From contig USSF01000003.1 in assembly GCA_900557405.1 (NCBI GenBank), positions 1-60,127 of the forward strand: 60,127 bases of DNA, written 5' to 3'. A program made the translations under genes and the position numbers. Shown one piece after another: positions 39,443 to 45,020 of the stretch. The stretch comes from an uncultured Prevotella sp. (GTDB lineage: Bacteria > Bacteroidota > Bacteroidia > Bacteroidales > Bacteroidaceae). Positions within the stretch are counted from its first letter, which is position 1. Every line of letters starts with the position of its first letter. Below the pieces are notes generated by a model, which was not told where the DNA came from, made no database searches, and saw only the letters and a program-made list of their open reading frames with translations.

Positions 39443-39532
39443 GATGACTACGGATACATTCACCGGAAAAGAACTCCAGCAAAACAACAGTATCGGCTTA
39501 TGGCAACTCGGCAACATACAAACATCATCGTA
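39443..39532 (+). CDS. Possible 29-residue leader ORF
   Basis: ATG at 39443 opens MTTDTFTGKELQQNN in a frame different from the DUF1848 gene and ends at TAG 39530-39532, overlapping the next start by 33 bp. It is the first ATG after the promoter. It may be a regulatory leader peptide or chance; no homologue is recognised. Confidence 0.3.
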
Positions 39533-40564
39533 GACGGAAGGTCTGTCAAGGCACAGGCTCCCGTCATCGTTTCGGCAAGCCGGAGCACAGACATTCCGGC
39601 ATTCTATGCTGAATGGTTCTTCAGCCGCCTCGAGAAGGGCTATTCGGCATGGACCAACCCCTTCAATGGCGTGAAGTCGTATGTGTCATACGAAAAGACG
39701 CGCTTCATCGTGTTCTGGTCGAAGAATCCACGCCCGCTGATACCATATCTACATATTCTGAAGGAAAGGGGCATCGGCTGCTACATCCAGTATTCGCTCA
39801 ACGACTATGAACAGGAGGGGCTCGAAAGGGTGCCGCCCCTGCAGACGAGAATCGAGACATTCAAGACGCTCGCCGGTATGCTGGGCAAGGAAGCCGTGGT
39901 GTGGCGCTTTGACCCGCTGGTACTGACCGATGACATCTCCACAGACGACCTTATCAGGAAAATCCGGAATATCGGCGACCAGCTGAAGGGCTACACCGAA
40001 AAGCTCGTGTTCAGCTATGCCGACATCGCCATATATAAAAAGGTGAAGCGCAACATGGAACTGAACGGCATATTCTATCACGAATGGGAAACGCCAGAGA
40101 TGGAGGAGTTTGCCGGAAAGCTGGCGGCGCTGAACAAGGAGCGCGGATGGAACTTCAAGCTTGCCACCTGCGGCGAGAAGATTGACATCACGAAATACGG
40201 AATCAGCCACAACCGCTGCATCGACGGCGACCTCATAGCCCGAATCGCCCACAAAGACAAGGAGCTGATGGCTTACATGGGAATCAAGGTGGAGGACATG
40301 CCCGCCCCTACCCTCTTCGGCGCTGCAGAACTCCCAGAAGGGGCTGTACTGCTTCCGCACGGCAGGTATTTCGTGAGCACGCACCGGAAGGACTCCGGAC
40401 AGCGGCAGTATTGCGAATGCATGACATCAAAAGACATCGGTGAATACAACACCTGTCCGCACCTTTGCGAATACTGCTATGCCAACACCACCAAGCAGCT
40501 CGCCCTGGACAACTGGAAGCGCCATCAGAACAACAGATTTGCCGACACCATAACAGGAAAATAA
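39500..40564 (+). CDS. DUF1848 protein with C-terminal radical-SAM-type cysteine motif
   Basis: A 354-residue cytoplasmic protein of the DUF1848 family. The N-terminal part (PVIVSASRSTDIPAFYAEWF, then FIVFWSKNPRPLI) and the alternating strands and helices suggest a TIM-barrel-like core. Cys319, Cys323 and Cys326 form C-PHL-C-EY-C, the radical SAM pattern CxxxCxPhiC that holds a 4Fe-4S cluster, but at the C-terminus rather than near the N-terminus. Cys305 and Cys307 precede it and may bind another metal. Radical SAM relatives include DNA-repair enzymes such as spore photoproduct lyase; the reaction here is unknown. One base separates its stop from the next start, so the two products probably act together. 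Strong dedicated promoter. Confidence 0.8.
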   Translation: MATRQHTNIIVDGRSVKAQAPVIVSASRSTDIPAFYAEWFFSRLEKGYSAWTNPFNGVKSYVSYEKTRFIVFWSKNPRPLIPYLHILKERGIGCYIQYSLNDYEQEGLERVPPLQTRIETFKTLAGMLGKEAVVWRFDPLVLTDDISTDDLIRKIRNIGDQLKGYTEKLVFSYADIAIYKKVKRNMELNGIFYHEWETPEMEEFAGKLAALNKERGWNFKLATCGEKIDITKYGISHNRCIDGDLIARIAHKDKELMAYMGIKVEDMPAPTLFGAAELPEGAVLLPHGRYFVSTHRKDSGQRQYCECMTSKDIGEYNTCPHLCEYCYANTTKQLALDNWKRHQNNRFADTITGK

Positions 40565-43500: not shown

Positions 43501-45020
43501 GCAACCGCCTTGACATCGTGCCACTCGACCACCAGCTGCTCCCCAATGTGCGCAAGGACACAGGCAACAGCATCATCACCATGCTCACGACACGCCGCAT
43601 AGCGTTCGTCACGGCAGAACCGGAGAAGCCTTCGCTCTCAGCCAAGACTAACAGTATGGAGGCGAGGATGATTGCCGCCACCGTGCGCTCCGTGTATGAG
43701 CTGACCGCCGGAAGCTTTGAGACGGAAAAGACAGTGGGCGTCATCGTGCCATACCGCAACCAGATATCAACGGTGAGAAACGAGATTGACAAGTTCGGCA
43801 TCCCCTGTCTGCACGACATCACGATAGACACCGTGGAACGCTATCAGGGCAGCCAGCGCGACTACATCATATACGGCTTCACCATTCAGCAGCCATACCA
43901 GCTCAATTTCCTCACAAGCAATGTGTTTGAAGAGGACGGACTGGTGATTGACCGCAAGCTGAACGTGGCAATGACCAGGGCGAGGCTGAACCTGATTCTC
44001 ATCGGGAACCCCGTTCTGCTCAACGAGAACTTCACCTTCTACAAACTGATGGAGTTCGTGAGAAGCAAGGGAGGATACTTCGATGTGGATGCGGAAGACT
44101 ACTGCAGGGGGGACTTTGACGTGCCGGAAGCCGTCTGTGCCGACGAGGCTGACATGTCAATGGAAACGTTCGGCATGTCCTCCCGATTCGCCGAATCATT
44201 CAGCCATAATGTAACGGACGCGATAAAAGCCGACCCGCGCACAAGATGGCACGAGATAATCCTGGGCAACACGATGGAGGCAAACATGGCACTCATCAAC
44301 TACGGAAGGATTGATTTCTCAAACCAGCTGTCATTGTTCAGCACGCAGCTGGACTCCAACCTGAGCGTGAACACCGACGACCAGGTGCTGCTATACTGTC
44401 ACTACATCATGCGCAGGCATTACTGCAGCGCAAAAAAACTGTATCATTCATACCGCGAATGGCTGGCTTCCATGGCTGAAGACGCAGGCGGAAGGATACG
44501 TATCATAGACATAGGGTGCGGCCCCGCCACCTGCGGCATAGCCTTTGCCGAACAGATGACGGGACAGTTCCCCAACATACATTATACGGGCATCGACATC
44601 TCCGTGGCGATGAAGGCAATGGCGGAAAAGCTGCTTGGGGAGACGACCGGCGGAAGGATGCAGATGACATTCAGGACTTCCTTCCAGGAACTGGACGACA
44701 GCTATTGGACTTCCGTATCGGAGACACCAAACCTCGTGGTTTTCAACTTTTCATACTTCTTCTCCAATGTGGACAGCACCTTCACCGAGAACCTGGCAAA
44801 CAGGATGGTCAGCGTGATGAAGAAGAATCCGCTCAACCGCTATGTCTTCTTCATACAGCACTCGGAGCACGACGCGAGAATCCGCTCTTTCCTTGTATTC
44901 AAGAGCATACTGAGTGAATACGTGGACAAGATTAAGTCAAGACACTCAAGCTTCAGCTACGAACTGGGTGGAAACACAAAGACTCTGCCCTTCTGCTACG
45001 AGATATGGAGGACTAAATAA
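40566..45020 (+). CDS. PD-(D/E)XK nuclease - SF1 helicase - methyltransferase fusion
   Basis: A 1484-residue protein. Residues 1-350 are unrecognised. A RecB/Cas4-like nuclease site follows: Asp381 in GRLDF and Glu394-x-Lys396 in IIIEQKSGK. The superfamily 1 helicase of the DNA2/UPF1 type has Walker A GPPGTGKTS at 750-758, Walker B VDES (Asp870-Glu871), motif III GDHKQLP (Asp902), VERYQGSQRD and NVAMTRARLNL near 1120-1150. After a linker rich in polar residues comes a class I methyltransferase domain with IIDIGCGPATCGIA (Asp1315) and TGIDIS. It is second in an operon with the DUF1848 gene, 1 bp apart. The set suggests an anti-phage defence or DNA-repair machine; no function is proven. The next gene has its own promoter. 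Confidence 0.82.
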   Translation: MQTKPYTKRKIDNSDRVHASIGKSIVVDSASSLYMLLQESCADNMPDGDKYDILRQVFRRAVDQAVLDCQIAFVGLFAKVDYCIKEYGIPFGVADLIHMARKDLFPQPNSNRKLSEEELPRLFPHNLKATALLVYHVCGKEEIPERLKACFPRADRKKTWGKYNENVIRVIVEHWDDEYIWATEEENNTTLQISYGSRNRILTLEGKSDWSYLRTILWEGAKLNLVRIRMDERGEICMPELIILEPDYLINITTISSCFESYAESPFVNLINKIKPSPNTQPIHLGNLSGQFLDDTVHDRNIALNDSLRDFVSKNMLGFISCPELSAGLAHFVQDAQIQKRNISQLIGTSLPQTFERYNKKDVVLEPSFFSDVLGIQGRLDFLWQNGKDTIIIEQKSGKGEFVPYSSPSYNPDVPKEKEPHWVQVLLYRALLVYEYQKYAAEIKGIMLLYSKYAKGLIALPNSPQLLHRAIRMRNLLAWSEILYAKEGLDILTSLTPNMLNKKKLTGRLWENYIQPQLSELLKPIASASKLERLYYLRFMRFLENEQLLAKVGNKTKEDSGFAATWTDTLEEKKAAGNIYDRLHIAGYDFEDKQEVSVSGIKLRFDEPQAADTTNFRIGDIVMLYPYNYSQETKVPNACAQMVHRASIVDMKNDSIELRLRCSQTDKSVFENKPEGTLWAIEHDMLESTAGSMYSAMHSFLSAPKERRDLILLQRRPETDSTIRRKGEYGNFNSLVERAKQARDLFLIIGPPGTGKTSYGLVNLLKEELLEEGTNVLLLSYTNRAVDEICSKLVELKGENPGFDFMRIGSELSCSKEYRRYLMCNKLKSEDTKSGERLIQATRVFCGTTAALNANMPLLQIKRFSLAIVDESSQILEPHLIGLLSAREGNSCRIDRFVLIGDHKQLPAVVQQTPEESAVTEPELRDIHLSDCRLSLFERLLAQFKTDSGDYDEHFVYMLTKQGRMHRDIAEFPNYAFYGNRLDIVPLDHQLLPNVRKDTGNSIITMLTTRRIAFVTAEPEKPSLSAKTNSMEARMIAATVRSVYELTAGSFETEKTVGVIVPYRNQISTVRNEIDKFGIPCLHDITIDTVERYQGSQRDYIIYGFTIQQPYQLNFLTSNVFEEDGLVIDRKLNVAMTRARLNLILIGNPVLLNENFTFYKLMEFVRSKGGYFDVDAEDYCRGDFDVPEAVCADEADMSMETFGMSSRFAESFSHNVTDAIKADPRTRWHEIILGNTMEANMALINYGRIDFSNQLSLFSTQLDSNLSVNTDDQVLLYCHYIMRRHYCSAKKLYHSYREWLASMAEDAGGRIRIIDIGCGPATCGIAFAEQMTGQFPNIHYTGIDISVAMKAMAEKLLGETTGGRMQMTFRTSFQELDDSYWTSVSETPNLVVFNFSYFFSNVDSTFTENLANRMVSVMKKNPLNRYVFFIQHSEHDARIRSFLVFKSILSEYVDKIKSRHSSFSYELGGNTKTLPFCYEIWRTK

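Follow-up and report, generated by a model that had tools for sequence, protein, structure and literature searches.

A DUF1848 gene next to a nuclease-helicase-methyltransferase gene in an uncultured Prevotella, a possible member of a modular gene family

In a 60,127-nucleotide stretch of DNA from an uncultured Prevotella sp. (contig USSF01000003.1, positions 1 to 60,127; hereafter the window), a gene encoding a DUF1848 protein is followed on the same strand by a gene encoding a 1484-residue nuclease-helicase-methyltransferase, with a single base between the stop codon of the first and the ATG of the second, exactly as an earlier reading of the sequence alone (hereafter the sequence-only reading) had described. 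This arrangement raises the question of whether the two genes belong together and, if so, as what. We give a probability of about 0.45 to the explanation that they are one member of a modular family, in which DUF1848 and a methyltransferase-like core bearing an S-adenosylmethionine (SAM) motif are joined to an interchangeable nucleic-acid module, and in which that core would handle base modification.

The neighbours of DUF1848 carry this modular reading. Among 399 genomes of the Prevotella pectinovora family, DUF1848 occurs at 68 places in 61 genomes (E-value up to 1e-20), and we read 38 of these places, chosen mainly as the closest to the window rather than at random, of which one (L091) was left out. 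In 31 of the remaining 37 loci, DUF1848 is followed within 200 bp by a same-strand gene that encodes more than 150 residues; the other six (L064, L086, L095, L097, L098 and L099) have no such close neighbour. We found that 22 of the 31 next genes encode a methyltransferase-like N-terminal domain that has the motif [VIL]xD[WY][GA]CGQ[GA] and in which FSNILD-like and AYGxMH-like motifs are conserved as well, and that one more, at locus G045, encodes a helicase-nuclease with a methyltransferase domain at its end. Past the N-terminal domain the helicase is swapped from partner to partner: seven carry a UvrD-type helicase, nine a DpdF/RecQ-like helicase, one a superfamily 1 (SF1) helicase with a PIN domain, and three carry Sel1/leucine-rich repeats (LRR) or LRR alone, while two carry nothing and are followed by genes for a DEAD helicase and a Schlafen-AlbA protein. 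Partner types were assigned by profile for the domain-scanned genes and by BLAST for the others.

A profile of the N-terminal domain, made from 17 rows taken from DUF1848-neighbour genes, found the domain in 29 of the 399 genomes, every one of them among the 61 that possess DUF1848 (hypergeometric 2e-27). The genome searches score the first candidates per genome, up to five for this profile and two for the helicase-nuclease. Thirty of the 32 domain places share a contig with DUF1848, and the domain is encoded by the gene directly downstream in 24, further along the same strand in four, upstream in one and on the other strand in one; this comparison covers 55 of the 68 DUF1848 places, and adding the other 13 changes nothing. 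Collectively, these sequence searches indicate a tight link between DUF1848 and a methyltransferase-like domain that varied partners carry.

Several results weigh against the modular reading. The adjacency count is partly circular, as the profile was itself drawn from DUF1848 neighbours, although this does not apply to the finding that the 338 genomes lacking DUF1848 also lack the domain. At E 1e-8 the domain is missing from 32 of the 61 DUF1848 genomes, and it occurs with no DUF1848 in view on a Moraxella plasmid and, with none within 7 kb, on the IMG/VR contig L243. The kinship between the C-terminal domain of the window protein and the N-terminal domain of the partners is also distant. Profile-profile comparison joins them at a probability of 93% (E 2.7e-7), but the N-terminal-type hidden Markov model (HMM), run at E up to 10, picked up none of the 28 window-type proteins; a predecessor of this model, with 16 rows, had picked up a single protein of 121 (P0010). 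In the reverse direction, the window-type HMM recognised L096 (E 5e-7) as the only one of 22 N-terminal-type partners. The two types appear to be remote kin at best by sequence, with the fold modelled for the window domain only, and we infer rather than observe that they are the same component. Because the single-profile links mostly failed, we lowered the probability of the modular reading from 0.50 to 0.45 and slightly raised that of a chance neighbourhood, in which a mobile DUF1848 gene landed before a widespread Dna2-like gene and the two proteins do not cooperate, an explanation that we still regard as rather doubtful.

That the two HMMs hardly detect each other's proteins fits such a chance neighbourhood, as does the distribution of the helicase-nuclease, which matches in 311 of the 399 genomes (E up to 1e-30) against 61 for DUF1848. 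We read 44 distinct helicase loci, comprising the 30 best matches with a 1.5 kb flank and 14 further ones; at L029 the upstream side falls beyond a contig end, and at L030 and L032 it extends for no more than about 450 and 310 bp. Intact DUF1848 adjoins one of the 44, the domain-bearing G045, and is missing from the other 43, and only two DUF1848/Dna2-like pairs were found. The C-terminal methyltransferase domain itself is present in 16 of these loci and absent from 28. A fixed two-gene system is therefore rejected: the sequence-only reading had presented the genes as an operon and had proposed a search for their co-occurrence, naming rare adjacency as an outcome that would refute it, and in that search they are rarely neighbours. 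The best 120 of 951 helicase-nuclease homologues include 27 that exceed 1440 residues, the others ending before the domain at about 1140-1240 residues. A second type of helicase-nuclease (L103-L114, 1415-1433 residues, about 38% identity), of which 12 of 23 listed loci were read and which probably comes from Bacteroides or Phocaeicola, has the C-terminal domain in 12 of 12 cases and adjoins DUF1848 in none. These second-type loci are chromosomal and keep recurring neighbours that look from their sequences like lipoprotein, MATE-like and short-chain-dehydrogenase-like genes, which argues that the helicase-nuclease gene is not itself a mobile defence gene.

The P. pectinovora locus (L001) also accords with loosely associated genes. 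Its helicase-nuclease is intact and 83% identical to the window protein, and it is preceded by only the tail of DUF1848 (positions 5940-6000; the last 20 residues, 75% identity, E 3e-4); across the gene junction, 104 bases match the window at 92%, and the rest of DUF1848 is absent. Most simply, this alignment suggests that P. pectinovora once had the pair and lost the first gene. AIPR and PD-(D/E)XK transposase-family genes lie upstream of the remnant. A DUF1848 gene or trace stands beside two of the 16 domain-bearing helicase loci and none of the 28 domain-less ones, which is suggestive only of a link between DUF1848 and the methyltransferase-bearing form.

Two lines of evidence speak against chance. 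Related DUF1848 genes otherwise pair with the methyltransferase-like domain, and the pairing with the helicase-nuclease arose more than once. A tree of 62 DUF1848 proteins (61 different) places those of the window and G045 within a starred set of 20 rows but apart from each other; of the other rows in this set, 14 are domain-paired, one has the domain further along and three are without it. The starred branches force two changes, so on no fewer than two occasions DUF1848 came to precede a Dna2-like protein, each time of the domain-bearing form found in 16 of the 44 helicase loci; the spacings are 1 and 4 bp.

DUF1848 and its partner domain are also found on mobile DNA. Six DUF1848 records are on plasmids and eight on phages, and in three of 24 viral-contig DUF1848 loci (L123, its identical twin L124, and L140) the domain adjoins; no viral contig was found to carry the 1484-residue protein. 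On L140 (IMG/VR, 5569-7939), the gene directly before DUF1848 encodes an RnlA-like protein whose C-terminal half resembles a methyltransferase (window-type profile E 2.5e-5). The stretch 6917-12927 of L243 has a gene for a 1737-residue protein with the N-terminal-type domain, whose start looks by eye very similar to that of the DpdF-like partner at L069, and a 263-residue coiled-coil-like gene, alongside what we guess by eye to be ParB-like and terminase-like genes. In the stretch 2754-7723 of the Moraxella osloensis plasmid (L207), a lone methyltransferase-like gene (profile E 1.5e-37) lies 3.2 kb past an annotated viperin-family radical SAM gene. On a Roseburia plasmid (L210, 3340-5960) DUF1848 directly follows annotated ADP-ribose hydrolase and Sir2 genes, and at L087 it is followed by UvrD and then a 2CompART/2CompARG protein; these two loci make a link of DUF1848 to ADP-ribosylation possible.

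What might DUF1848 contribute? The sequence-only reading had noted a cysteine triad of the radical SAM type, and this was borne out: C319-x3-C323-x2-C326 is invariant in 39 aligned DUF1848 proteins and in a second, more diverse alignment of 34, and the CX3CX2C pattern occurs in 27 of 27 open reading frames (ORFs) longer than 250 residues drawn from 30 loci across the phylum. The AlphaFold2 model of the window protein (predicted local distance difference test 92.7) has a partial TIM barrel resembling that of the radical SAM superfamily, and in a VIA-align comparison its 23 best rows were all radical SAM enzymes, with Elp3, an RNA-modification enzyme, and spore photoproduct lyase scoring equally well. 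By sequence, no significant match of DUF1848 to radical SAM proteins was found, with PF04055 positions 5-20 aligning weakly to residues 317-338 (E 0.04). The triad and partial barrel are common to DUF1848 and the superfamily (Elp3, spore photoproduct lyase, BioB, PFL activating enzyme), whose triad lies early in the barrel, whereas that of DUF1848 is at 319-326 of 354 residues, and we propose a circular permutation of the barrel. Attempts at sequence proof failed: a 12-row permuted profile searched against the PDB sequences found no radical SAM chain up to E 10, and a permuted 34-row profile averaged 22.7 against 29 radical SAM proteins, compared with 22.8 for the native profile and 22.5-22.7 for four control cuts, so that permuted profiles gained nothing. 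In the model comparison a clean permutation does not fit every structural row, as the Elp3 rows start ahead of its motif. Further invariant cysteines (C224, C240, C305 and C307) could hold a second metal site.

The three-part make-up of the second protein, claimed by the sequence-only reading, is supported by Pfam, PADLOC, motif and structure-model evidence, and the residues it singled out (D381, K396, K756 and D1315, together with C319 of DUF1848) are at the positions named. Its nuclease assignment combines a weak Cas4 profile match (Table 1) with motifs, of which the GRxDF-type is present in 120 of 120 relatives and the ExKSG-type in 117. The helicase matches AAA_12 and AAA_11 (E 5e-29 and 2e-22). 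Pfam methyltransferase matches fall under the gathering cut-off (E 3e-4 for the whole protein, 3e-5 for the isolated domain), and the assignment is backed by the structure model, in which the domain has a METTL17/Rsm22-like fold; the Pfam Rsm22 family (PF09243) does not match it at E up to 10.

Parts of this protein recall known systems. DNA2 of eukaryotes, like the window protein, places a RecB-like nuclease before a helicase of the SF1B group, to which IGHMBP2 and UPF1 belong, and it is the closest solved chain to the window helicase (E 8e-22 over residues 736-1151); in contrast, the window protein is bacterial and ends in a methyltransferase domain, and its nuclease is not matched to DNA2 by sequence. 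Mokosh systems, which include a kinase or phospholipase-like part, match through MkoA and MkoC (E 1e-47 and 2e-20), but only in the helicase and not at full length, the window protein having its nuclease and methyltransferase instead. The defence helicases PLuB and ProA remain below the NCBIfam cut-off (190 of 999 and 29 of 1500 bits). The window DUF1848 matches the PADLOC model RTasDUF1848 (126.7 bits), which is associated with DRT systems; the window unit, however, has two genes, and a Pfam scan of seven neighbouring ORFs revealed no reverse transcriptase. The METTL17/Rsm22 mitoribosome assembly factor is alike in fold to the window domain, which is fused to a helicase-nuclease, and the four iron-sulphur cysteines given for METTL17 (C333, C339, C347 and C404; PMC11046306) have no counterpart there, two cysteines following the start of the SAM motif. 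PADLOC and NCBIfam have no model for the whole unit, the string DUF1848 was absent from the 5.39 million papers searched (a search that most subscription journals lie outside), and the accessible portions of the literature on radical SAM proteins with DNA2, DpdF, TerB/UvrD, defence islands or circular permutation describe no make-up that we recognised as this one. The statement that no described system has this composition thus holds for these sources.

If the modular reading is correct, the methyltransferase-like domain would bind structured nucleic acid and position a base or lesion for DUF1848, which would use a [4Fe-4S] cluster and SAM to generate a 5'-deoxyadenosyl radical that installs or reverses a base modification, while the Dna2-like helicase-nuclease would open and trim the same molecule. 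The cluster, the chemistry, the substrate, contact between the two proteins and the purpose, be it defence or repair, are all part of what we infer.

Overlapping with this is a DNA repair unit, in which DUF1848 would act on damaged bases as spore photoproduct lyase does, the Dna2-like enzyme would process ends and the methyltransferase domain would be an RNA- or DNA-binding scaffold. The lyase-like fold of DUF1848 fits, as do UmuC-like and Cdd1-like genes near six and five, respectively, of 30 DUF1848 loci sampled across the phylum (both kinds were seen, for example, among L182, L183, L203 and L206). Elp3 matches the model as well as the lyase does, however, and a housekeeping repair pathway would not usually be so scattered in its distribution or exchange its helicase type; we judge the odds to be against repair.

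That same sporadic occurrence (the domain is in 29 of 399 genomes) would suit a modular anti-phage system with a constant sensing or modifying core and a variable helicase or LRR module, which also overlaps with the modular reading and which we consider quite possible, if short of even odds. Partner types resemble PADLOC components (DpdF, NERD+UvrD, MkoA/MkoC), an ADP-ribosylation pair or SLFN-AlbA protein lies next door to DUF1848 units, copies occur on viral contigs (L123, its twin L124, and L243), and candidate defence genes adjoin the window unit and lie near another. Against this, PADLOC families among the DUF1848-locus neighbours (102 of 217 compared) were not clearly more numerous than among control neighbours (102 of 114), at 41 and 33, with at most three and two members each among the families listed, so the defence-island enrichment that the sequence-only reading had proposed to look for was not shown. 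Of the anti-phage or repair role it had suggested, defence is possible, with no clear PADLOC excess near the loci and with UmuC and Cdd1 neighbours elsewhere in the phylum. Further still goes the idea of a large undescribed bacterial system of immunity against phage nucleic acid, whose constant modification core, a circularly permuted radical SAM enzyme together with a METTL17-like domain, would be attached to interchangeable effectors (Dna2-like, DpdF/RecQ-like, UvrD, PIN, LRR/Sel1), with mitochondrial METTL17/Rsm22 of shared ancestry; we think this unlikely, and marked it down a little further because the single-profile links mostly failed.

Table 1. Features of the window discussed in the text.
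Feature	Position	Strand	Basis
DUF1848 gene	39500..40564	+	354-residue ORF; PF08902, E 3.9e-89
Codons of C319-x3-C323-x2-C326, radical-SAM-type triad near C-terminal end	40454..40477	+	Alignments
Nuclease-helicase-methyltransferase gene	40566..45020	+	1484-residue ORF
PD-(D/E)XK (Cas4/RecB-like) nuclease core, D381, E394-x-K396	41658..41978	+	PADLOC Cas4 profile, residues 365-471, E 2e-4
SF1B Dna2/UPF1-type helicase, residues ~736-1170	42771..44075	+	Walker A K756, VDESSQ 869-874
C-terminal methyltransferase domain, residues 1191-1484, METTL17/Rsm22-like fold	44136..45017	+	SAM motif DIGCGPATCG; structure model
Promoter-like -7 element TACTTTTG	39405..39412	+	Consensus match only; 87 bases ahead of DUF1848 ATG
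Fic-like gene and 396-residue gene	37271-38951	-	PADLOC PDC-M59B/A, E 4e-92 and 7e-205

The surroundings of the pair modify two further claims of the sequence-only reading. It had one strong promoter driving both genes; a promoter at TACTTTTG ahead of DUF1848 is plausible from its fit to the Bacteroidota -7 consensus TAnnTTTG, which occurs 50 times in the window against 28 expected, the word strong is without support, and no sigma-70-type promoter was found within 39000-39500. It had also called the neighbouring genes unrelated, which is incomplete, as the upstream pair on the opposite strand matches the candidate defence genes PDC-M59A/B. A similar pair (60% and 52% identity) lies near the DUF1848 unit of L065, at 9556-11030. 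Downstream in the window, a tRNA-Ser followed by a tyrosine integrase (49768-51161) possibly marks the end of an integrated element.

For DUF1848, an abundant family of at least 8000 scored homologues without known function, these results provide a first testable partner and a nucleic-acid-processing role. A radical SAM barrel that carries its cluster motif at the C-terminus would, if true, be a notable fold variant, and a METTL17 relative that occurs in bacteria and has a role other than ribosome assembly would, if true, bear on the origin of the mitochondrial factor.

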